From a candidate division WOR-3 bacterium (GTDB lineage Bacteria > SDB-A): a stretch of 64,000 nucleotides of DNA. Positions 2,509 through 30,888 of the stretch are shown piece after piece. Within the stretch, counting starts at the first letter, position 1; each line of letters starts with the position of its first letter. The notes under the pieces were generated by a model. The model was not told the DNA's origin. It worked only from the letters and a program-made list of their open reading frames with translations, and did no database searches. The stretch lies in assembly GCA_016926475.1 (NCBI GenBank), contig JAFGON010000040.1, forward strand, positions 1 to 64,000. Reading direction: 5' to 3'. The translations under genes were made by a program, and so were the position numbers.

Positions 2509-3300
2509 ATGCCAAACATGATAATAATTGGTTTAGCAATATTTGCTATAGGTCTTGTAATGACCATGTCTGGAAGGGGCGGCGGAAATTTCTATGTGCC
2601 CCTCCTTGTTATTGCAGGTTTGGGAATGCACCAGGCAGCCGCTATGGGTCAGTTTATTCTAATGATTGCTGCGTTGACCGGAATGCTGGTTTTCAACAAA
2701 AAAAAGATGGTAGATTGGAAACTGGCTTTGGTTATTGATCCGCCTACTGATGTAATGGCGTTTGTTGGAGGGTACTTCTCCAGTTATTTGAGCGGTTCAA
2801 CTCTGAAAATAATTCTGTCGGTATTTCTGGTTTTGGCCGGTATTTTAATGCTGATAAAAGTTAAAGAAAGACCTATAAAAAAAGAAAAAAAATTCGGATA
2901 CTGGCACAGAAAATTTGGAGACGAAGAATATGTTGTCAATTTATGGTATACGATTCCCATTACCGCGCTTGCCGGTCTTGTCGCCGGATCGGTAGGGATA
3001 TCATGCGGCACATTCAAGATTCCTCTGATGGTTTTACTTTGCGGTGTGCCAATGCATATAGCGGTCGGGACTTCTTCAGCAATGATTGCCGCTACGGCAA
3101 TAATGGGTTTTCTGGGTCATACGATGCGAGGACACTTTGATCCTGAATTTGCCATTCCCCTGGCAATAGCGGCTGTATTGGCCGGTATATTTGGAGGAAA
3201 ATTGGCCATAAAAACAAAAACGAAGTATTTAAAGTTGATATTTGCAGTGACAACTTTTGCTGCCGCAGTATTTATGATAATCAATACGCTTAAAACATAA
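2509..3300 (+). CDS. TSUP (TauE/SafE) family sulfite/sulfur exporter
   Basis: Integral membrane protein of 263 residues with about eight hydrophobic segments in two homologous halves, the usual size and shape of the TauE/SafE/TSUP family. Each half has the typical glycine-rich first helix (MSGRGGGNFYVPLL near 20; GSVGISCGTFKIPLM near 160). Family members export sulfite, organosulfonates or thiosulfate, or take up thiosulfate. It starts two bases after the rhodanese stop, which supports a sulfur-related substrate. A perfect hairpin follows the stop codon. Confidence 0.88.
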   Translation: MPNMIIIGLAIFAIGLVMTMSGRGGGNFYVPLLVIAGLGMHQAAAMGQFILMIAALTGMLVFNKKKMVDWKLALVIDPPTDVMAFVGGYFSSYLSGSTLKIILSVFLVLAGILMLIKVKERPIKKEKKFGYWHRKFGDEEYVVNLWYTIPITALAGLVAGSVGISCGTFKIPLMVLLCGVPMHIAVGTSSAMIAATAIMGFLGHTMRGHFDPEFAIPLAIAAVLAGIFGGKLAIKTKTKYLKLIFAVTTFAAAVFMIINTLKT

Positions 3301-3310
3301 AAGGTTTTTC

Positions 3311-3341
3311 CCAGTGTGAATACGTCCTGTATTCACACTGG
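3311..3341 (+). terminator. Perfect 13-bp hairpin after TSUP gene
   Basis: CCAGTGTGAATAC at 3311-3323 pairs exactly with GTATTCACACTGG at 3329-3341 across a five-base loop. It begins 11 bases after the TSUP stop. The following bases ACATTCTTTT form only a weak U-tract, so it may be a terminator or an mRNA 3' stabiliser. Confidence 0.55.
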
Positions 3342-3369
3342 ACATTCTTTTGGCGGAGACACGCCACTT

Positions 3370-3450
3370 CATATAACTGCGCGTAGCCGGTTCGGGCAAC
3401 TTCGCATAGCCGCAAACGCTATAATTCTCTGCAACTTAAAAAGTTATATG
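3370..3450. repeat. attC-like inverted repeat
   Basis: The outer arms CATATAACT (3370-3378) and AGTTATATG (3442-3450) are exact inverted copies enclosing about 60 GC-rich, tRNA-loop-like bases. This layout matches attC-type sites that follow cassette genes in environmental and spirochaete or Bacteroidetes islands. It lies just after the rhodanese/TSUP pair. No integron integrase is in view. Confidence 0.4.
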
Positions 3451-3575
3451 CCGCTTGACGCAGCATTTTTGATTATTTTCTTTTTAACTTATCTTGGAAA
3501 TAAAATAGATTTCACATAGAGGATGAAAACAAAACCCCTGAAGGTAAGTTCGCATTTTTTTAGTAAAAAATTATT

Positions 3576-4409
3576 TTACGGAACTATCCTTATACCCCTT
3601 GACCTCGGGGAGTTGTCGAAGACTTCGATTACGTGAAATACTATCGCGAAAGATTTTCTCGGTGAAACTCCGTGTATGAAGTCGTGGACGGTGTTGACGT
3701 ATTCTACTATGCCCCTATCCCTTTCCGAGAGGTCTGAGCCCTCAGGGTAAATGAGCTGGGCTACGGCTTTGACTTCGAAAGAGGGAATGTCGAGAAAGAC
3801 TATTGATACAAGCGGATTTTTCATTATGTTGAGAAATGATCCTGTTTTGAAATCTTCACTCGTGTACAATTCGAGGCTGACCTGTTTTGTCCTGTCAAAA
3901 ATTTCAGGGTTTTGGTAGAGTGAATCGAGGATTTCAAGTTTGCGAATAAATGAAGAATCGTAATTTGAAAGCAGAAGCGAGGTCACTTCTTTTATGAATT
4001 CCTCCTTTGGAAGAAAACCAAGCCCTTTGACGGCGTTGTTTATGCTGACGCGCGTATCTTCCCTTTTGGCGCCGTATGTCGCGACCATTCCGGAGTGAGG
4101 TCCAGACAGGGGGGGCATTTCGCCATTTTTCCACATTTCAAGAGCTTCTCTTCTTCTGGCGATGTTCCATGTCATAAAATCGTCCGGCAGGATTGCGATA
4201 TCCAAGACAATCCACTCGTCGTCAACGAGCGCTTTTATTTTGCCTTCCGAAATGTTTTCAAGATCCACGTTGGTTTGTTTGTAAAAAGGGAGATTTGATT
4301 CATCACCTGTATGATCCGAGGGTTGATTTTCTGATGTCTGACTTGTCTGAAAACAGGAAACTGGTATGAAAAATGCGACGAAAAACAGCAATACAAAAAA
4401 TCTTTTCAC
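3576..4409 (-). CDS. Hypothetical lipoprotein
   Basis: Lipoprotein of 277 residues: the signal MKRFFVLLFFVAFFIPVSC carries a clear lipobox, followed by a Ser/Thr/Gln-rich linker. The mature part is a mixed alpha/beta protein with no motif I can name; it holds a patch GPHSGMVATYGAKRED and a C-terminal FAIVFHVIEVFDNSP. The GTG start is set by GGGAGG six bases upstream. The gene is divergent from the GGDEF gene and shares about 220 bases of upstream DNA with it. Function unknown. Confidence 0.75.
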   Translation of the reverse strand: MKRFFVLLFFVAFFIPVSCFQTSQTSENQPSDHTGDESNLPFYKQTNVDLENISEGKIKALVDDEWIVLDIAILPDDFMTWNIARRREALEMWKNGEMPPLSGPHSGMVATYGAKREDTRVSINNAVKGLGFLPKEEFIKEVTSLLLSNYDSSFIRKLEILDSLYQNPEIFDRTKQVSLELYTSEDFKTGSFLNIMKNPLVSIVFLDIPSFEVKAVAQLIYPEGSDLSERDRGIVEYVNTVHDFIHGVSPRKSFAIVFHVIEVFDNSPRSRGIRIVP

Positions 4410-4571
4410 GATGACCTCCCTCGGTAGATTTGACCTAAGATTTTTTATTCTATCACAAAAAAAGACCGCTAAAAGCGGAAATTTCAGCTCTTCTTTTCAA
4501 GTTAATATTTCCATGTATGATTGCATTTTCTCTGACTGGTTTGAATTCAGTTTACGGTCGACAAAACTGAT

Positions 4572-4602
4572 TTGACTTCGTTTGTTGTTTTTGTGTTAAA
4601 AT
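4572..4602 (+). promoter_or_regulatory. Possible sigma-70 promoter for GGDEF gene
   Basis: TTGACT at 4572-4577 and TTAAAAT at 4596-4602 are spaced about 18 bases and end roughly 12 bases before the AAGGAG ribosome binding site. The spacing is loose and the leader would be very short, so this is tentative. Confidence 0.3.
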
Positions 4603-4628
4603 CAAAGAAAATTCAAGGAGTCAATTTA

Positions 4629-5603
4629 TTGGTTGATCCATCTTTTGAAGATTTTCTTTTTGAACTGTTTCTCATAGATTCCGACCTAAAACTTTTGAAA
4701 TACGGAAAAAGCTTTTCCAAATTGCCCGGAAATCCTAAAAACCTCCGGGAAGGCGTTAAAATCACTGAATATCTCGTCATGGGGGAGGACAGAAAGATAA
4801 TCGAAAAAGAGATGAGGAGAAAAATCTCTGAAAATTCCGAATTTGAGATGACGTTCGACATTGCCGCCGGAGAGCGCAGGAGAAGGGTTTTTGTGAAATT
4901 TTTGCCGGTTGAGTTCAAAGAAAACTCACGTGGCGCGATATGCTCTGTTTTCGATTTAGGGGCTGTTCAAGAATCGTTCTCTAATGGGGCAGAAGACACC
5001 AGAAAAGACTTGCAGAATGTCATCGAAAGAAGAGCATCAAATCTCTCAAAGACGAATAAGATGCTCATTGATGAACTCAAGAGGAAACAGGTTGTAGAAG
5101 AGGAGCTGAGATATTTTGCCTCAACCGATTCTTTGACTGGAATTTACAACCGTCGAGCCGGATTGCTCTTTCTCGATCACCGAATAAGGGAATCTATGGA
5201 CAACAACACTCCTTTTCAAATTTGTTTTGTAGACGTAAACAACCTAAAAGAGATAAACGACAGTTATGGACACAACGAAGGCGACTACCTTCTGGTGAAA
5301 TTGACTGAAATCCTGAACCAGTCCATAAGAGAGTCGGATGTAATTTTCAGGCTCGGAGGGGATGAATTCATCATTATATTCCATGCCCTCGCCCTTGAAA
5401 ACACAAAAAATATCTGGAAAAGAGTCGATAAGAATCTCGGAAAATACAATGAGTCGTCACAAAAAAAATATGAAATTTCAGTGAGTTACGGTTTCGCGAC
5501 TTTCGACCCTTCAAAACCTAAGACAATCGAAGAACTTATTTCCTTCGCCGATTTTGAAATGTACAGGGAAAAAGAAAAGTTTCATAAAAGGCAGGAGAGT
5601 TGA
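4629..5603 (+). CDS. Diguanylate cyclase (PAS-like sensor + GGDEF)
   Basis: Makes cyclic di-GMP from two GTP. The N-terminal 110 residues look like a PAS/HNOBA-type sensor (FLIDSDLKLLKYGKSF). A coiled-coil linker follows near 120-160, then the GGDEF domain from about residue 165. The catalytic motif GGDEF is intact at 243-247, with an RESD inhibitory site five residues before it, so product feedback is expected. There is no membrane segment. The TTG start at 4629 is preferred over the upstream TTG at 4572 because AAGGAG lies eight bases before it. An intrinsic terminator follows. No HD-GYP or EAL partner occurs in the window. Confidence 0.9.
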   Translation: MVDPSFEDFLFELFLIDSDLKLLKYGKSFSKLPGNPKNLREGVKITEYLVMGEDRKIIEKEMRRKISENSEFEMTFDIAAGERRRRVFVKFLPVEFKENSRGAICSVFDLGAVQESFSNGAEDTRKDLQNVIERRASNLSKTNKMLIDELKRKQVVEEELRYFASTDSLTGIYNRRAGLLFLDHRIRESMDNNTPFQICFVDVNNLKEINDSYGHNEGDYLLVKLTEILNQSIRESDVIFRLGGDEFIIIFHALALENTKNIWKRVDKNLGKYNESSQKKYEISVSYGFATFDPSKPKTIEELISFADFEMYREKEKFHKRQES

Positions 5604-5607
5604 TATA

Positions 5608-5635
5608 AAGGGGCGTAAACGCGCCCCTTTATTTT
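5608..5635. terminator. Bidirectional intrinsic terminator
   Basis: AAAGGGGCG (5608-5616) pairs with CGCCCCTTT (5623-5631), with T-rich sequence on the plus strand and A-rich sequence (T-rich on minus) on the other side. It sits between the convergent ends of the GGDEF gene and a minus-strand lipoprotein gene, and can serve both. Confidence 0.8.
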
Positions 5636-6504
5636 CTTTTGGCAGGAATTATGAAAGCGGACGAAAAATAGTCTCCTTCTGTAGTGTGAAGAGCAGAAAA
5701 GTTTATAGCGTCAAAGGCGAAGTTGATCCTGTCCGGTATTGTGTCGGGAAGAATGACGAGTCTTGAAAACTGTCCGAACACCGGGTCGGCAGGGATCAAA
5801 AATCTCGCGTGTGTGTCTTTCCACCCGAAATGGAAATAGCAGTCGGCGGTGTCTCCCGACACATAATACGTCATGGTGATCGAATCTCCTGCTCTGAAAG
5901 AAGGTATTTCTGAAAAACTGTCGTCAACAGACCAGACACTTCTGAGTTTGTTGTAGCCGAAATGATAGGTGGTGTCCGTGGTCTGAATCGAAACGCTGTC
6001 GACCGAAAGAAGAGATCCGGGCGATTTTACGAGAGCGGGGGATATTCCCCTGAGTCTCCATCCCCTGTAGGTTTCGTTGGACTGGCCTATTCTGACGAAA
6101 ACTGCGTTTCTCGTGAAGTCGTCGGAGAAATTCTTTTGAATCGAATCGATTTCGAGGTTTTTGAGATAATAAATATAGAGAGTTCCGGAGAGGTTGAACG
6201 TTATTGTGACGTAAGCTGTGTCGCCGACAAGTTGGATGGAAAAATCTTTCGCCACTCCGGCTGACGGGGATCTAAACCAATGTATCAAGTTGATCGGGCT
6301 GAAAATTTTGCCTTTAGAACCCGTTGTGTCTTCTATTCCGTAGTATGAAGCGTCGGCTAAAAGAGTAGAGTATTCATCGTTTATGAGGTTTGTTATAGCC
6401 GTCCTGTCGAGAGTGGCGGGATCCTGCGGACCTGTCGAGCTTTCTTTTGTGCAAGATGAAACCAACAGCAAAACCAACAGAGTCAAACTGGGAATCTTTT
6501 TCAT
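5629..6504 (-). CDS. Hypothetical lipoprotein
   Basis: Lipoprotein of 291 residues. The signal ends LLVSSC, followed by a short TKESSTGPQDP linker typical of exported lipoproteins in FCB bacteria. The mature protein is beta-rich with an early helical segment (TAITNLINDEYSTLLADA) that resembles SnoaL-like or LPP20-type secreted domains, but I cannot name the family. The ATG start has a good AGGAGG site. The last codons overlap the shared terminator hairpin. Function unknown. Confidence 0.72.
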   Translation of the reverse strand: MKKIPSLTLLVLLLVSSCTKESSTGPQDPATLDRTAITNLINDEYSTLLADASYYGIEDTTGSKGKIFSPINLIHWFRSPSAGVAKDFSIQLVGDTAYVTITFNLSGTLYIYYLKNLEIDSIQKNFSDDFTRNAVFVRIGQSNETYRGWRLRGISPALVKSPGSLLSVDSVSIQTTDTTYHFGYNKLRSVWSVDDSFSEIPSFRAGDSITMTYYVSGDTADCYFHFGWKDTHARFLIPADPVFGQFSRLVILPDTIPDRINFAFDAINFSALHTTEGDYFSSAFIIPAKRK

Positions 6505-6561
6505 TTTCGCCTCCTTTTAAGCTTTTAGACTTCTTGACGCCGCGAGAAGTTTAAAAGTATT

Positions 6562-7614
6562 TCACGCGACCGAAATCTCTTCGCACAAATAGACGTCTTG
6601 AATCGCGTTGAGAAGGTCAATACCTTCTATAAGAGGTTTTTGAAAGGCTTTTCTGCCTGATATAAGCCCCATGCCTCCGGCCCTTTTGTTTATAACCGCT
6701 GTTTTGACAGCTTGAGAAAGGTCGTTGTCGCCTGAAGGTCCTCCGGAATTTATCAGCCCTATCCTTCCCATATAACAGTTGGCTACCTGGTACCTCGTCA
6801 GATCTATCGGGTGGATTTTGGCGAGGGTCTCGTATACTCTGGGGTCTGTTTTGCCGAATTTAAGGTCTTTGAAACCGCCGTTGTTCTCGGGTTGTTTCTG
6901 CTTTACGATGTCGGCTTCAATTGTCACAGCCAAATGGTTCGCCTGTCCGGTCAGATCCGCCGAGACGTGGTAGTCCTGGGTCTGGGTCTTGAAAGCCTCG
7001 TTACGCAAATACGCCCACAAGACAGTGACGAGTCCAAGCTCATGAGCCCTTTGGAACAATTCGGAAATTTCCAAAATTTGCCTTCGGGATTCCTGAGAAC
7101 CAAAATAGATCGTAGCCCCGACGGCGACTGCTCCCATGTCAAATGCCTGCTCTACCGATCCGAAAAGAGTCTGGTCGTAGCTGTTCGGGTAAGTGAGCAG
7201 TTCGTTGTGGTTTAATTTCACAATGAACGGAATCTTGTGGGAGTATTTTCTGGCAACCGAACCGAGAGAGCCGAGGGTTGAAACGACCGCGTTGCACCCT
7301 CCTTCGATTGCGAGCCTGACGATGTTTTCCGGGTCGAAGTATGAAGGGTTGGGGGCAAAGGAAGAACCCGCTGAGTGCTCGACGCCCTGGTCCACAGGAA
7401 GAATGGAAAGGTAGCCGGTCTTGGTTAGCCTTCCAGTATTCATGATCTGCTGCAGGTTTCTCATCACCGCGGGGGACCTGTCGTTTTGTGAAAAAACTCT
7501 GTCTATGAAATCGCCTGACGGAAGGTGGAGGTTTTCTTTGAGAATGCCGGTGCATTTGTAATTCAGGAGGTTTTCTGCTTCGTTTCCGAGATGTTTGATG
7601 ATCTTTTCTATCAT
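6562..7614 (-). CDS. fbaB: Class I fructose-bisphosphate aldolase, FbaB type
   Basis: Cleaves fructose 1,6-bisphosphate to dihydroxyacetone phosphate and glyceraldehyde 3-phosphate through a lysine Schiff base. The whole 350-residue protein matches the bacterial FbaB/DhnA type: [20 protein letters not shown], the active-site strand [38 protein letters not shown] and the C-terminal [15 protein letters not shown]. The ATG at 7614 with a GGGGG site is chosen over an in-frame upstream start that would add 13 residues. It is a stand-alone gene, divergent from the SRAP gene. Its role is glycolysis or gluconeogenesis in the cytoplasm. Confidence 0.95.
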
Positions 7615-7695
7615 TATGCCCCCTTTGAATTTATATAAGTGAAATTTTATCACTCTTTCTGGTAGAATTTCAATAAAGAGAAAAAGGAGAGAAAA

Positions 7696-8367
7696 TTGTG
7701 CGGAAGGTTTGCCATAAAGAGTACGCTTGAAGAGCTAAAAAAGGATTTCAAAGCCAAAACTTCAAAAGACTTCAACTCGAATTCCGTCAAAATTCCATCT
7801 TTCAATATTTCACCGGGGAACAACATTGTCATTCTCCTTGAGCCTTCCGAAATCAAAGTTGTGAAGTGGGGGCTTGTTCCTTATTGGTCAAAAGAAGAAA
7901 ATTCAATGTATGGTATGATAAACGCGAGGTCTGAATCTTTGTCGGAAAAAAAATCATTTTCAAGGCCTTTTAGGGAGAAAAGGTGTGCTGTTCTGGCTGA
8001 CGGTTATTTTGAATGGAAAAATGATGGCAGAACTAAAACTCCCTATTATTTTAAACTGAAAACAGGAGAGACGATGGCGTTTGCCGGGATTTACGATGTT
8101 TGGTCCAAAAATCCTGACTTCAAACTGCTTTCCGCGGCTATTATAACCGTGGAGGCACAAGGAGACTTAAGGTCGATACACGAAAGAGCTCCCGCCATAA
8201 TCAGAAGAGAGAATCTGGATATGTGGCTGGACAACTGTTTTTTTGACATAGAAAAACTGCAGGGCTTGCTGAAAAAAGCCGAGTTCAAAGACATCGAGTT
8301 TTACGAAGTCACAAAAAAAGTGAACTGGACGAAATACGATTTCCCGGATTGCGTCGAACCCTTGTAA
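7696..8367 (+). CDS. SRAP-family abasic-site shielding protein (YedK/HMCES)
   Basis: SOS-response-associated peptidase family. Cys2 forms a stable thiazolidine with abasic sites in single-stranded DNA. The protein begins MCGRF, so processing of Met1 exposes the active cysteine. The other known active-site residues are visible: Asn of INARSES, Glu of GYFEWK and His of HERAPAII. The length of 223 residues is normal. The start codon is TTG directly before the TGC for Cys2, with AAGGAG six bases upstream; this is fixed because Cys2 must follow Met1. It works with the repair genes found elsewhere in the window, but no operon is visible. Confidence 0.95.
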
Positions 8368-8481
8368 AGATTACCTTTTATAAACGGGTATTTTTGCCCG
8401 AAATTTCAGAAAATTATTTTTTTGCCGCCCCCTTCAAGTATTACTGATTTTGCGATTTTCTTAAAGGGAGAGTTATACCCG

Positions 8482-8661
8482 TCAATCCTTTTTGTTGATA
8501 TTTTCGAATTCGCCGTTTTCAGCTTTTTTTACCAATTTTTCGTATATGTTATGAGTTTTTTCGTCCTTTTCTCTTCTCTTTGAGGTATCGTAATTTTTAA
8601 GTTTATTTGATAGAAGAAAATACAGAAACAGCGCCCCCATGACTAAAAGTAGTATTGTCAT
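8482..8661 (-). CDS. Small single-pass membrane protein downstream of bioY
   Basis: A 59-residue frame beginning MTILLLVMGALFLYFLLSNK, with one N-terminal membrane helix followed by a basic and then a charged helical tail ending ENINKKD. It starts 33 bases after the bioY stop on the same strand, so it is probably in the same transcript. The helix-plus-charged-tail layout resembles small CcmD- or YajC-like accessory proteins, but I see no specific match. No strong ribosome binding site is present. The remaining intergenic bases hold nothing I can name. Confidence 0.5.
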   Translation of the reverse strand: MTILLLVMGALFLYFLLSNKLKNYDTSKRREKDEKTHNIYEKLVKKAENGEFENINKKD

Positions 8662-25922: not shown

Positions 25923-27335
25923 ATGTCTTCAGAATATTACGTTTCCAATAAGTCTATTTCGGTCAGGCTTTTAGGCGAAAGCGACGCCCAGCTTTTTCAG
26001 CCTGACACAGGCTCTAAAATATATCTCAATCAGACCGGGCTTTTCATTTGGAAGTTACTCGACGGCGGTAATTCAAGGGTTGAAATTGTCAACGCTGTTC
26101 AGAATGAATTTGACGCTCCCGACAGCAAGGAACTCGACTCCGATATAGGGCAATTTCTGAGCGGTCTCGAAGAAAAGGGGTATGCCCATTCACGGAATTT
26201 TCTTAGAAGAGAACCCAGAAGCACCTATTTCATTCATGAAAATGAAGCGCCCAGGTCAATTGACATATCTGTTACGAAAAATTGCAACCTGAACTGCAAG
26301 TATTGTTTTTATCGCGAAGAGATGAAAAATAGGGAAGACCTGCCCCTTTCGGAATGGGAGAAGTTTTTGGAGGAGCTTAAAAGCCTTGCGGTCGAAGAAG
26401 TCGTGCTGAGTGGTGGAGAGGTTTTTTGCAGAAAAGATCTCTGGGATTTCATCGATTTGATCGTGGAAAGCAACCTCAGGTATTCGTTTCTTTCAAACGG
26501 AACGTTGTTCGACGATTCTGTTCTCAGCGAGCTCGAGAAGGATGGGCGTAAAAAGAGGCTATCGAGCATACAAATCTCAATAGACGGTTCAAAGGCGGAA
26601 GTTCACGATATGTCGAGAGGGAAAGGAAGTTTTGAAAAGGCTGTAAGGGGTCTGAAAAACGCCATGGGTGCCGGATTAAACGTCACGGTGAGGTTGACGG
26701 TAAACAGACACAACCTCGGCGACCTCGAAGAAGCCGCGAAATTCCTGCTGGTCGATATCGGACTTCCATCTTTCAGCACCAACGACGCGATTCCTCTCGG
26801 GGCGGCGTGCTGGAACAAAGACACGATAACACTCGATCCTTTAATGCAGTTTGAGGCGATGAAAACCCTCGGAAAACTTCAAAAACAATATGACAACAGA
26901 ATCACGGCGATGGCAGGGCCTTTGGCGAAATGGCATCTTTACCGAAAGATGGAGAGGATGAAAAGGCAAGGCGAAAAACCAGAGCCCTGGATGGGATATT
27001 TGACGGGATGCGGATGTCCTTTCAGCAAATTGGCAGTTCACCACGACGGTGTATTTATTCCATGCAATATGCTCTCGAAAATTGAACTTGGCCAGATGAA
27101 CAAAGATTCTCTGAAAGATGTTTGGATCAACAGCCCTATTTTGAAGAGGATGAGGGAGAGGCGAAGAGTGCCTATGAAAGAAGTCCCGGGCTGTGAAAAC
27201 TGCGAGTACAATTTGTATTGCAACGGCAGCTGTCCAGCTTTGGCCGGAGTGACTGCTGAAAATTTTATCCTTCCAAACCTCTTCGACTGTTACAAGAAAT
27301 TCAAAGAAGATACAGGCCGGAATCTTGACGAATAA
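25923..27335 (+). CDS. PqqD-like domain fused to radical SAM/SPASM enzyme (RiPP maturase 1)
   Basis: Probable peptide-modifying radical SAM enzyme of 470 residues. Residues 1-90 are a PqqD-like peptide-recognition domain (GSKIYLNQTGLFIWKLLDGG). The radical SAM core carries C121-x3-C125-x2-C128 for the SAM-binding 4Fe-4S cluster and a GGE motif near 164. The C-terminal SPASM domain has C363, C365, C381, C424, C427, C433, C437 and C456, enough for two auxiliary clusters. Enzymes of this layout form thioether or C-C links in ribosomal peptides. It overlaps maturase 2 by 11 bases. The ATG lacks a clear Shine-Dalgarno. The likely substrates are the two Cys-rich peptides 2-5 kb downstream. Confidence 0.9.
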   Translation: MSSEYYVSNKSISVRLLGESDAQLFQPDTGSKIYLNQTGLFIWKLLDGGNSRVEIVNAVQNEFDAPDSKELDSDIGQFLSGLEEKGYAHSRNFLRREPRSTYFIHENEAPRSIDISVTKNCNLNCKYCFYREEMKNREDLPLSEWEKFLEELKSLAVEEVVLSGGEVFCRKDLWDFIDLIVESNLRYSFLSNGTLFDDSVLSELEKDGRKKRLSSIQISIDGSKAEVHDMSRGKGSFEKAVRGLKNAMGAGLNVTVRLTVNRHNLGDLEEAAKFLLVDIGLPSFSTNDAIPLGAACWNKDTITLDPLMQFEAMKTLGKLQKQYDNRITAMAGPLAKWHLYRKMERMKRQGEKPEPWMGYLTGCGCPFSKLAVHHDGVFIPCNMLSKIELGQMNKDSLKDVWINSPILKRMRERRRVPMKEVPGCENCEYNLYCNGSCPALAGVTAENFILPNLFDCYKKFKEDTGRNLDE

Positions 27336-28383
27336 GTTTTACCCTCTTAAAACGATCTACATGTATCTGATGGGCAGCTGCAACCTAAAATGCAGACATT
27401 GCTGGATTGACCCGGATTTTGTGGATGTCCCGCAGAAATACTTGACTTGGACTGAAATTAAGAGGATCTACCAGGAAGCAAAAATAATAGGCCTGTCTTC
27501 AGTTAAATTGACCGGGGGGGAACCTTTCCTTCATCCTGAAATTCTCCAGATAATAACTGGAATAAAAGAACTCGGACTTGGTTTGACCATAGAGACAAAC
27601 GGTACTTTGTTGGATGATGAGAGAGTGCATGCGCTGAAAAAACACGCGAATTTCGTCGCCATTTCCATAGACGGCGCTGAACCCAACAGTCATGAAGACC
27701 TTAGGGGTGTCGAAGGCTCTTTTGACGCAGTCTTAAAAGGCGCGGGACTGCTAAAAAAAGAAGGCTTGGGGTTTCAAGTCATATTTTCTCTCTACAGGAA
27801 AAATCTCCGGGATCTTTTTTTGATGCCCAGCTTTGTCGAAGGAATAGGAGGCGCAAGCCTCAAGGTAAATCCGATCAACGTCGTAGCGAGATCTGAAAAA
27901 ATGGAAAGAGACGGAGAACTGTTTTCTGTAGAAGAAATTTTAGAAATAAAAAATGATTTTGACCGTATATCAAAAAAATCAAAACTGACGATAACATTCG
28001 ATGTGCCTGCCGCTTTTCATAGTCTTGAGCACATTTCGAAACAGGGATTTGGAACGTGCGGAATCCTGACTATTTTGGGGATACTCAGCGACGGAACGGC
28101 GAGTATCTGCGGCATAGGATCGGTTAAAAAAGAACTCGATTTCGGAAATTGCCTCGACCGAGGAATTGAGAATATATGGCGTGAAAATGACACTCTGAAT
28201 ATGCTCAGAGAGAATATACCTCATAACCTGCAGGGTGTATGCATGAGGTGTGTCCACAAGCATTACTGCCTGGGCAAGTGCGTAGCGGAAACATACGCCA
28301 GAACGGGCAGTTTTTTGTCAGGTTATTATTTCTGCCAGATAGCTCAGGAAAAAGGACTTTTCCCCCCTACGCGACTTTTATGA
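27325..28383 (+). CDS. Radical SAM/SPASM enzyme (RiPP maturase 2)
   Basis: Second radical SAM protein of the locus, 352 residues, without an N-terminal PqqD domain. The cluster motif is C19-x3-C23-x2-C26, very close to the N-terminus, followed by LTGGEPFLHPE. A SPASM-type Cys-rich end begins at FGTCGIL and continues with CGIG, a GNC and CMRCVHKHYCLGKC before a final FC. The start is TTG, inside the end of maturase 1, and the stop overlaps the next gene by four bases, so expression is tightly coupled. Two different SPASM enzymes suggest two modification steps or two types of cross-link. Confidence 0.9.
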   Translation: MTNKFYPLKTIYMYLMGSCNLKCRHCWIDPDFVDVPQKYLTWTEIKRIYQEAKIIGLSSVKLTGGEPFLHPEILQIITGIKELGLGLTIETNGTLLDDERVHALKKHANFVAISIDGAEPNSHEDLRGVEGSFDAVLKGAGLLKKEGLGFQVIFSLYRKNLRDLFLMPSFVEGIGGASLKVNPINVVARSEKMERDGELFSVEEILEIKNDFDRISKKSKLTITFDVPAAFHSLEHISKQGFGTCGILTILGILSDGTASICGIGSVKKELDFGNCLDRGIENIWRENDTLNMLRENIPHNLQGVCMRCVHKHYCLGKCVAETYARTGSFLSGYYFCQIAQEKGLFPPTRLL

Positions 28384-29252
28384 AAGACAAGCCATCATCG
28401 GATATAGCGGTTTTTGTGCTATCGGGAGAAAGTATGAAACCGCTTATGAAGACCGGCGATGTTTTCATGGCTTCAAAAGTTTTTCCGGAGAAATTGAAAT
28501 ACGGCGACATAGTCGTCTTTGAAAAAAATGGAAAACTCGTATCTCACTCAATCATCAAAGTGAAAAGAGAAGGAACGGATATCAAAGTCTTGACAAAGGG
28601 TTTGAACAGAAACGAGGACGACGGATGGACAGATGGGGATGTTTTGAAATTCGAAGTCGAAGCCCTGAAAAAGGGGAAACATTTTTTGGGTTTAAACCGG
28701 ACAAAAAAGACATTTTATTGTGCGTTGGCGCCGTTGAGGAAAAAAATCCGCAACTGTCTTTTTGAGTTTTCTGTTAAAATTTCGCCACTGTTTCGATTTA
28801 TGATGAAAAAAGGGCTGATAAAGGTAAAAAAAATTATGTCTCAAGACGAAGAATTAGTGGTATTATGGGACAGAAGTGTTTTGAAAAGAAGGGGCGATAA
28901 TAGAGAAATACACCCCTTTTTTAGAAAAGGCGCGGTGAAAGAAGAGGATTTAATGGAGTCTGCAGAAAAACAAGGCAAGACAGGTAACGTTTATATGAAC
29001 CCTGATCTGGTTTTCAGAATTGAGGGAGACGAGGGTCTTGTATATAATGTGAAAACAGGTGATTTTAGAATAATAAACGAGACGGGTTGCGCGATTTTAA
29101 AACTCGCCAACGGAAACTTCGACAAGAAAGGAATAATAGACCTTATACTTGAAGAATACGAATCAAAGGACCAAGAAGAGATGATGGTAAAAGAGGTGGG
29201 TGAATTTATTGACGATTTATCAAAACGAGATATAATAAGATTGATTGATTGA
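28380..29252 (+). CDS. Ser-His (SipW/ER-type) signal-peptidase domain fused to PqqD-like domain
   Basis: Two-domain protein of 290 residues. The N-terminal part has the S26 motif SGESMKPLMKTGD with the nucleophile at Ser18, then SHSIIKV with His56 in the place of the general base, and TKGLNRNEDD with a conserved Asp. This Ser-His-Asp form is the archaeal/ER/SipW type rather than the Ser-Lys bacterial type. There is no N-terminal membrane anchor. A basic, partly hydrophobic linker follows, and residues 202-290 form a PqqD-like recognition domain (RIINETGCAILKLANG). I infer that it binds and cleaves the leader of the neighbouring precursors. The ATG at 28380 overlaps the upstream stop; a frame extension to 28239 is not used. 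Confidence 0.82.
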   Translation: MKDKPSSDIAVFVLSGESMKPLMKTGDVFMASKVFPEKLKYGDIVVFEKNGKLVSHSIIKVKREGTDIKVLTKGLNRNEDDGWTDGDVLKFEVEALKKGKHFLGLNRTKKTFYCALAPLRKKIRNCLFEFSVKISPLFRFMMKKGLIKVKKIMSQDEELVVLWDRSVLKRRGDNREIHPFFRKGAVKEEDLMESAEKQGKTGNVYMNPDLVFRIEGDEGLVYNVKTGDFRIINETGCAILKLANGNFDKKGIIDLILEEYESKDQEEMMVKEVGEFIDDLSKRDIIRLID

Positions 29253-29271
29253 TTAATTAATTGGGGGAAAT

Positions 29272-29568
29272 ATGAAAAAGAAATACATAAAACCTTCTAT
29301 TTTAGATTTTAAACCAAGGGTTGCCCAGGGAAATCTTTTTTCGGGAACCAACACCAGCAGCCCGGAAGGCGGCTGTACAGCTGGTTCAGCGGCTGATTAT
29401 TGCAATTATGGACAAATGGCGACCGGTTTTTCTGATTGCGCCAACGGTTCTGGCGCTATGGACTGCACGCAGGGCGCTTTGGCGAGTGGAAATCTATGCG
29501 CCACGGGCACGAACGCGACAGGAGGCGGAGGAGGATTTTGCGCTTCAGGGTCAAGCCCTCTCGCTTGA
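29272..29568 (+). CDS. RiPP precursor peptide 1 with six CxxG units
   Basis: Candidate precursor of 98 residues. The leader (1-34) starts MKKKYIKPSI and ends LFS...SPEGG. The core has six cysteines at 35, 44, 56, 65, 76 and 90, each followed by xxG. In the first five units Ala stands six residues after the Cys (CTAGSAA, CNYGQMA, CANGSGA, CTQGALA, CATGTNA), and the last reads CASGSSP. The core is rich in Gly, Ala, Ser, Thr and Asn with almost no charge. A strong GGGGGA ribosome binding site sits seven bases before the ATG. It follows the peptidase gene by 19 bases. The pattern repeats in peptide 2, so these are paralogues. Confidence 0.88.
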   Translation: MKKKYIKPSILDFKPRVAQGNLFSGTNTSSPEGGCTAGSAADYCNYGQMATGFSDCANGSGAMDCTQGALASGNLCATGTNATGGGGGFCASGSSPLA

Positions 29569-29594
29569 TGTGAAGGTTTAAAAAAGCTAATTGC

Positions 29595-30407
29595 TTGAAT
29601 GAATTAAAGATCAAAATAGGTTCCATATCTCTGAAATTACGGTCAAAAGAGCGTATCGGCTTTTTTTCTGATTTGTTTGAATACTTTAAGACAAAAGATG
29701 AATGTCTATATGACACTGAGATCGTTTTTTGGGATTGTGAAGACATCCTCGACTGCATAAAGAAGAAAATTTTTTGGGTGAAAGACAACATAAAATCCGC
29801 CAGAAATACTATTCACATGATTTCTTCTTTCGGATTTAAGACAATTGTTGACGAAGACCAGGGCAAGATATTTATTTTTTCCCCCCAGGAATACAAAGCC
29901 AAGGCTTTGAGGGTTTCTGTGGGCTTTTTTTGCTGGAAAATGTTTCCCAAAGACAAATATCTTTTTTTTCATGCCGCGTCCTGTAAGTTCTCAGAAAACA
30001 GCTATCTCTTTCCGGCGAACAGCGGCAAAGGCAAGACCACTTTGAGTGAAAACGCAATAAAATGCGGCGAGGTATTCAACGACGAGTTTTCTCTCGTCGA
30101 GATTACCACAGACGGATATGTTCTTCATGGCACACCTTTCGGGCAGGTGACGAGCGGACCGATTTTGGGTCAACTAAAAAAAATATTCTTTCTCGAAAAA
30201 AGCGAAAAAAACGACTTCAAGAGGATTACGCCCGTCGAATCAATGAAAATTGCTTGGGAGGACAACCTATACAGAACAGGGATAACCAATTCCGAAGAGA
30301 GAAAATTGGTGTTCAACGAAATTTTGGATATTTTCGAAAATATTCCATGTTTTGAGATGAATGTGAGAAAAGATTTCAACGATTTTAAACTACTCGAGAA
30401 TTTATAG
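29595..30407 (+). CDS. HPr-kinase-like P-loop protein of the RiPP locus
   Basis: Protein of 270 residues with a C-terminal HPr kinase/phosphorylase-like fold: FFHAAS near 126, the Walker A ANSGKGKTT at 141-149, FNDEFS near 161 and HGTPFG near 178. Similar HprK-like proteins accompany radical SAM peptide systems such as the Scm cassette (ScmC) and lasso-peptide loci, where their exact role is unsettled. The N-terminal 110 residues are not recognised. It starts with TTG 26 bases after precursor 1. It may phosphorylate the peptide or a partner, or may be a regulator; the sequence does not decide. Confidence 0.78.
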   Translation: MNELKIKIGSISLKLRSKERIGFFSDLFEYFKTKDECLYDTEIVFWDCEDILDCIKKKIFWVKDNIKSARNTIHMISSFGFKTIVDEDQGKIFIFSPQEYKAKALRVSVGFFCWKMFPKDKYLFFHAASCKFSENSYLFPANSGKGKTTLSENAIKCGEVFNDEFSLVEITTDGYVLHGTPFGQVTSGPILGQLKKIFFLEKSEKNDFKRITPVESMKIAWEDNLYRTGITNSEERKLVFNEILDIFENIPCFEMNVRKDFNDFKLLENL

Positions 30408-30522
30408 ATCCCTTTTCTAAATAAAATGTTAAAATGACAGAAAACATTGGAATATAGAGCTGTTTTGGTATTTTTGAATCTTTTCTAAAACTCCGATTTT
30501 ATAAATAGATAATTAGAGATAT

Positions 30523-30551
30523 TTGCAGTGAATTGTTAATAAAAATATTAC
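30523..30551 (+). promoter_or_regulatory. Possible promoter for precursor peptide 2
   Basis: In the 190-base AT-rich gap before precursor 2, TTGCAG (30523-30528) and TATTAC (30546-30551) are spaced 17 bases, and a second pair TTGTTA/TAAAAT lies at 30553-30580. Either would give precursor 2 its own transcript. Neither is a strong consensus match. Confidence 0.3.
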
Positions 30552-30597
30552 TTGTTAATTTCCAAAAAAATCAATAAAATGTCAAAAAGGCTGTTTT

Positions 30598-30888
30598 ATG
30601 GGGAAAAAGAAGTATATTAAACCTCAAATAAGGTGTTTTGAAGCAATCACGGCATATTCACAGCTTTTTTCGAATGAATCACCTGAAGGGGTTTGCACCA
30701 TAGGCACCGTTGCAAACGCCTGTCAGGAAGGGGGAAGTGCGTCCGGAGGTCCAGGACAGTGCCTTTCCGGCTCGACTGCCAATTTTGACTGCCTCACTGG
30801 GAGTTATGCGCAGGGTTCGGTATGCTCCAACGGAGACCACGCGGCAAATCAAGGCGGACAATGTAAAGTGGGTATGAGTCCAAAATAA
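30598..30888 (+). CDS. RiPP precursor peptide 2 with six CxxG units
   Basis: Candidate precursor of 96 residues, paralogous to precursor 1. The leader begins MGKKKYIKPQI and ends LFSNESPEGV. The core cysteines are at 33, 42, 55, 65, 76 and 89; all six are CxxG, the first five are CxxGxxA (CTIGTVA, CQEGGSA, CLSGSTA, CLTGSYA, CSNGDHA) and the last is CKVGMSP. The leader also has a Cys at 13 that precursor 1 lacks. Spacings between the core cysteines are 9, 13, 10, 11, 13 against 9, 12, 9, 11, 14 in precursor 1. The start is ATG with AAGG upstream. It lies beyond the HprK-like gene and may have its own promoter. Confidence 0.87.
   Translation: MGKKKYIKPQIRCFEAITAYSQLFSNESPEGVCTIGTVANACQEGGSASGGPGQCLSGSTANFDCLTGSYAQGSVCSNGDHAANQGGQCKVGMSPK

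Follow-up and report, generated by a model that had tools for sequence, protein, structure and literature searches.

Positions 25923 to 30888 of the 64-kb stretch of DNA from a candidate division WOR-3 bacterium analyzed here (contig JAFGON010000040.1; hereafter, the window) carry a gene cluster for a ribosomally synthesized and post-translationally modified peptide (RiPP) that, judging from sequence comparisons, is a real, coherent, and divergent member of the Scm-like class in the wide sense. The cluster consists of six intact open reading frames (ORFs), all on the plus strand, in the order (PqqD-ScmE)-ScmF-(S26-PqqD)-peptide-HprK-peptide. Their positions agree with the initial annotation, made from the sequence alone, including the overlaps of 11 bases between ORFs 1 and 2 and of 4 bases between ORFs 2 and 3. 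The domains and motifs it had listed (PqqD, radical SAM/SPASM, S26 Ser and His, Walker A, and two Cys-rich peptides) were likewise recovered with Pfam, NCBIfam, and alignments.

Maturases and class assignment

The first gene (positions 25923..27335, plus strand) encodes a radical SAM/SPASM maturase that combines the Pfam domains PqqD (PF05402, N-terminal, ~25992-26183), Radical_SAM (PF04055, core at ~26265-26747), and SPASM (PF13186, cysteines at ~27009-27290). The product of the second gene (27325..28383, plus strand, TTG start) contains Radical_SAM and SPASM domains and no RiPP recognition element (RRE) domain. Among NCBIfam models, ScmE (TIGR04250) leads 107 families by a wide margin for the first maturase, and ScmF (TIGR04251) ranks first of 89 for the second. 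The CNLNCKYC motif of the first and its seven SPASM cysteines are invariant in an alignment of 11 homologues. Of the enzymes with solved structures, PqqE and the sactisynthase SkfB are among the nearest to ScmE and ScmF in sequence. In a tree of 84 proteins, all ScmE sequences form one clade (support 99) and all ScmF sequences another (support 98); the window enzymes fall inside these clades and the outgroups GeoRSP and AhbD outside both. No ScmE relatives were found among viral contigs.

Thus, the ScmE and ScmF of the window are monophyletic with the canonical ones relative to other SPASM families, and PqqD, ScmE, ScmF, a CxxG peptide, HprK, and S26 are all encoded in one cluster, in fused form. 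Weighing against the assignment is that all five curated Scm cut-offs are missed. The maturases score 376 bits with ScmE and 325 bits with ScmF (cut-off, 400 in both cases); ScmD (TIGR04248; cut-off, 100) yields 14 bits, the window PqqD domains being fused to ScmE and S26; the kinase-like protein reaches 17 bits with ScmC (TIGR04249; cut-off, 125), and its HprK similarity is also weak at the sequence level (TIGR04352, 21 bits; cut-off, 200). Neither peptide matches any NCBIfam or Pfam family at an E value of 1, ScmA (TIGR04252; cut-off, 35 bits) included. Because the enzymes join the ScmE and ScmF clades but every curated cut-off is missed, we treat the locus as a variant that belongs to the wider Scm clade without being curated Scm. 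The missed cut-offs, the absence of an ScmA match for either precursor, and the unique S26-PqqD fusion would also fit a distinct new RiPP class, functionally unrelated to Scm, that has borrowed similar enzymes. We consider this quite improbable, given the monophyly with Scm enzymes, a gene set and precursor grammar like those of loci whose peptides match ScmA, and the ScmE of genome G003, from a sister genus of the same family, which does pass the cut-off (408.7 versus 400 bits). The G003 contig ends inside the S26 domain. This locus (L042, G003:C335, LKUE01000335.1) is labelled Desulfuromonas sp. SDB; the genome is placed in the small phylum of the window, and the name looks wrong.

The label “unassigned” given to the locus at first is ruled out by the ScmE and ScmF matches, by the tree, by the ScmA matches of related peptides, and by the presence of the usual Scm gene set across many phyla. 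Scm had been cited there as merely related; the kinship is borne out, and Scm in the wide sense proves to be the locus's own class. Like Scm/SynChlorMet systems (TIGR04248-TIGR04252), the window combines paired SPASM enzymes of the same two clades with a PqqD-type RRE, an HprK-fold protein, and a Cys-rich CxxG-repeat precursor with a YxxP-type leader. Unlike them, it carries one PqqD domain on ScmE and another on the S26 peptidase, both as fusions, and has two precursors that flank HprK and no adjacent exporter or nucleotidyltransferase. GeoRSP (TIGR04303 and partners) resembles the window in having a PqqD chaperone with radical SAM/SPASM enzymes; membership in that system was rejected, as the window enzymes score ~98 and ~102 bits against a cut-off of 400 and belong to other clades on the tree. 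The NCBI text for Scm presumably lists Syntrophobacter, Chlorobium, and Methanocella; the assignment does not draw on this listing.

Precursor peptides and the wider class

Precursor peptides 1 (98 aa; 29272..29568, plus strand) and 2 (96 aa; 30598..30888, plus strand) are paralogues with 47% identity. Both begin with MxKKKYIKP, the leader motif YIKP being encoded at 29284-29295 and 30613-30624, respectively, and both contain six CxxGxx[A/P] units, the final one always ending in SP. In the cores, each of the 12 cysteines is followed by Gly at +3 and by Ala or Pro at +6, and the Cys-to-Gly fraction of the two cores was matched by none of 20,000 shuffles. Both peptides are also present, directly consecutive, in the congener G001 (JAFGIG010000016.1, candidate division WOR-3, phylum Caldifarciminota in the NCBI lineage), where peptide 2 was recovered with 61% identity. 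Between the two genomes, 24/32 and 17/25 of the fourfold sites differ (68-75%) and the repeat Cys and Gly columns are fixed; the peptides are real genes under selection. No other peptide passing the filter described below is found elsewhere in the 64-kb window, and there are no further copies of the two elsewhere in the genome. A consensus scan alone places promoter-like sites directly before each precursor gene: TTGACG-16-TATAAT (11/12; 29209..29236, plus strand), inside the end of the S26-PqqD gene, before peptide 1, and TTGTTA-17-TAAAAT (9/12; 30552..30580, plus strand) before peptide 2, which is preceded by a similar site in the congener as well. The peptides may therefore be expressed apart from the maturases.

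All four genomes of the window's phylum in the data set encode ScmE. In G001, the C terminus of HprK begins another contig. A second congener, G002 (L021, G002:C11, 6373-8206), retains ScmE in full and a ScmF truncated to 147 aa, with DUF402 directly after it; S26-PqqD, the peptides, and HprK are gone, indicating that the cluster is dispensable in that organism. Such losses are what a decaying, nonfunctional locus would show; for the window this is highly unlikely, as in both the window and G001 all frames are open and the peptides are under coding constraint.

For the wider class, genome contigs of 84,980 species were scanned with the ScmF alignment and the best 80 of 524 hits were inspected; the 524 hits as a whole are not claimed as Scm. 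Gene content was counted in these 80 ScmF loci and ten more (~90 loci). The 80 loci come from 13 or more named phyla and from several without a name, with methanogenic archaea among them. Among the ~90 loci, PqqD is found in 80, S26 in 64, and an HprK-like gene in 62, and the commonest order, seen in dozens of loci, is PqqD-ScmE-ScmF-peptide-HprK-S26. PqqD is fused to ScmE 13 times and S26 to HprK 7 times (L101, L104, L109, L115, L056, L090, and L096), whereas the S26-PqqD fusion is seen only in the window and its congener and is a feature specific to their genus. The order of the window was found nowhere else among these loci. The earlier statement that no known set has this order together with this core motif thus stands for the exact order and for the fusion, which the congener shares, and falls for the gene set and the peptide pattern.

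Candidate precursors were peptides of at most 260 aa with a YxxP-like motif, at least three CxxG motifs, and at least 60% of their cysteines in CxxG. As this filter was set after the first examples, the enrichment and not the filter counts as evidence. There are 51 such peptides at <1.5 kb from ScmF versus a single one at 5-10 kb (23.3 versus 0.24 per 100 kb, ~100-fold), and all 65 found within 3 kb lie on the ScmF strand. A CxxG peptide accompanies ScmF in 59/80 loci and in 32/40 where the contig is long enough, versus 0/30 control loci of other SPASM families (118 kb). The initial annotation, which read the locus as RiPP-type and would have been contradicted by maturase homologues regularly lacking such a peptide, is supported in this respect. 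A point on the other side is that 8 of the 40 untruncated loci have no peptide by the strict filter; two of these have degenerate ones. Overall, 89% of cysteines have Gly at +3 versus 20% after shuffling, and in 334 repeats position +6 is Ala in 44%, Pro in 18%, and Val in 10%, with the next Cys at +10 in 44%. The leaders contain YxxP in 52 of 65 cases and WxxP in 11. The precursor grammar is thus a YxxP leader followed by 3-9 CxxGxx[A/P] units, ~10 residues apart. An A.[GA] motif close to the end of the leader is present in 55% of cases versus 19% after shuffling; it is loose and some leaders do not fit it, which also counts against the cleavage scheme proposed below.

A peptide family with the same pattern already has a name, ScmA, contrary to what the label “unassigned” presupposed. 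Its model touches 14 of 63 CxxG peptides (E value of 0.1 or better), neither window peptide among them, so the precursor idea is not new, though the model reaches only a minority. A search of 386 genomes with this model gave mostly chance-level matches, the best of them (G289) in a degraded Scm locus. Some clusters encode more than one kind of CxxG precursor: L066 (Nitrospirae JdFR-81, 2524-8484), which also has two HprK-like genes, and L098 (9568-17500), which also has two ScmF copies, contain two or three, suggesting combinatorial use.

An ABC exporter is encoded in ~46 loci, an NTP_transf_5 nucleotidyltransferase in ~35, and a polysaccharide chain-length-type protein in 13. These genes, the many phyla involved, and the long, repetitive, and variable cores could mean that the modified repeats form a structural or surface peptide in the envelope or in exopolysaccharide-associated material and not a secreted natural product. 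We regard this as unlikely, though worth keeping in mind; in the window, phmmer found neither an exporter nor a nucleotidyltransferase of those families, and the genes next to the locus look housekeeping-like. Polysaccharide chain-length or export-type genes adjoin clusters L049, L055, L064, L067, L070, L081, L095, L120, and others, hinting at an envelope or exopolysaccharide link.

The S26-PqqD peptidase and the HprK-like protein

The third gene (28380..29252, plus strand) encodes a fusion of an S26-type Ser-His peptidase (~28401-28694) with a C-terminal PqqD/RRE domain (PF05402, ~29037-29237). Its N terminus passes the cut-off of TIGR02228 (signal peptidase I, archaeal/endoplasmic reticulum Ser-His type; 57.8 versus 51.85 bits), and in homologues from the clusters Ser18 is conserved in 65/65, His56 in 64/64, and Asp81 in 60/60. 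The structural model has a predicted local distance difference test (pLDDT) score of 80.7; its top PDB hit, chain 7p2p_A of the human signal peptidase complex, itself a Ser-His enzyme (E value of 2e-3), is supportive only. The sequence has no obvious membrane anchor, and the enzyme is therefore probably cytosolic. Neither signal peptidase nor S26 or S24 comes up in a review of RiPP leader proteases, which fits the novelty of such a peptidase and is no proof of it.

The gene between the two precursors (29595..30407, plus strand, TTG start) occupies an ScmC-like position and encodes a kinase-like protein. Its AlphaFold model (pLDDT, 88.6) has the PEPCK/HPr-kinase fold; H126, G146, K147, T149, and D163 are invariant in 37 homologues, and the Walker A motif (~30015-30041) is likewise invariant. 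An NTP_transf_5 gene lies near the kinase in L034 (3137-4549), L096 (5834-7078), and ~33 other loci, a neighborhood that recalls the kinase and nucleotidyltransferase pair by which the lasso peptide pseudomycoidin is phosphoglycosylated.

Predicted maturation and significance of the class

The explanation that we favor, and consider probable, is an Scm-type RiPP cluster with leader binding by PqqD, a thioether in each repeat, leader cleavage by the S26 peptidase, and phosphorylation by the kinase. The gene set, the homology to ScmE/ScmF clusters, and the precursor grammar enter it as observations; beyond the cited homologies, we infer the mechanism and its chemistry. The PqqD domains would serve as RREs that bind the YIKP leader, YxxP being a known RRE recognition motif (PMC12710340), and the one on ScmE would bring the precursor to the maturases. 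A second PqqD, on the soluble S26 peptidase, would then re-bind the leader, which the peptidase would remove, probably just past the small-residue AxG/AxA-like site after YxxP. The A.[GA] motif at the leader end resembles a signal-peptidase site and would suit an S26 enzyme, and one RRE on the first maturase with another on the peptidase fits two successive handovers. In paeninodin biosynthesis, a stand-alone RRE has nanomolar affinity for the leader and passes the precursor to the protease (PMC5067487). The HprK-fold kinase may act on a Ser/Thr in the peptide, in parallel with its relatives in lasso peptide biosynthesis, where an HPr-kinase homologue phosphorylates the linear precursor (PMC8498205). 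An RRE-read YxxP leader, RRE-assisted cleavage, and an HprK-fold kinase would thus be common to the window and paeninodin-type lasso peptides, whereas the window peptidase has a different fold, radical SAM maturases take the place of a lasso cyclase, and the core is made of Cys repeats. A single machine would be fed by the two paralogous precursors.

In the modification step itself, ScmE and ScmF would link each Cys sulfur to a carbon in its own repeat through a sactionine or ranthi-type thioether, with a loss of 2 Da each and up to six links per peptide. PapA, for comparison, is a precursor in which thioethers are formed in six Cys-X3-Asp units (PMC9413430), against six CxxGxx[A/P] units in each window peptide. 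Since every repeat holds a single Cys, the product most likely contains, as in PapA, one thioether for each repeat, and Gly at +3, nearly as constant as Cys, is the first guess for the acceptor. As in the ranthipeptide and sactipeptide systems PapA/PapB and SkfB, SPASM enzymes would act on Cys-containing peptides; the window differs from these in having no Asp/Glu acceptor in the repeat and two maturases instead of one. Literature searches returned no reported chemistry for any Scm system, which weighs against certainty here; thioether formation and its acceptor, the site of cleavage, and phosphorylation are predictions. There is perhaps a one-in-four case for a different outcome, in which the CxxG peptides are epimerized, oxidized, or joined by C-C or ether cross-links and the cysteines stay free for metal binding or disulfides. 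SPASM enzymes catalyze many reactions, two distinct ones are found in nearly all loci, and the C-x-x-G-x-x-A repeat has no obvious charged or aromatic acceptor comparable to the Asp of PapA (PMC9413430), with Gly at +3 conserved nearly as well as Cys and Ala/Pro common at +6. Against this, no other feature of the repeats is as regular as the single Cys that each contains, and among solved structures the nearest relative, SkfB, is a sactisynthase.

More tentatively, and with somewhat less than even confidence, we propose that Scm-like clusters form one large RiPP class of bacteria and archaea, in which paired SPASM enzymes would staple every CxxGxx[A/P] decapeptide unit through a thioether inside the repeat, from Cys to Gly(+3) or elsewhere. 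Leader cleavage would take place in the cytosol and fall to an S26 peptidase of the Ser-His type, which is not yet known to act on RiPP leaders; here the peptidase has its own RRE. This class has database names, yet among 5.39 million open papers none was found that names Scm, one of its components, or a model number, and most of the interest attaches to this class, which the window locus helps define, rather than to the locus itself. From the survey come a clear precursor grammar, a candidate for the leader peptidase, and a spread of the class across many phyla, and these make the product directly testable, with six similar sites per peptide and two enzymes. The fusion protein ought to combine leader recognition and cleavage in one polypeptide, and the repeated, spacing-tolerant cross-link units would serve peptide stapling.

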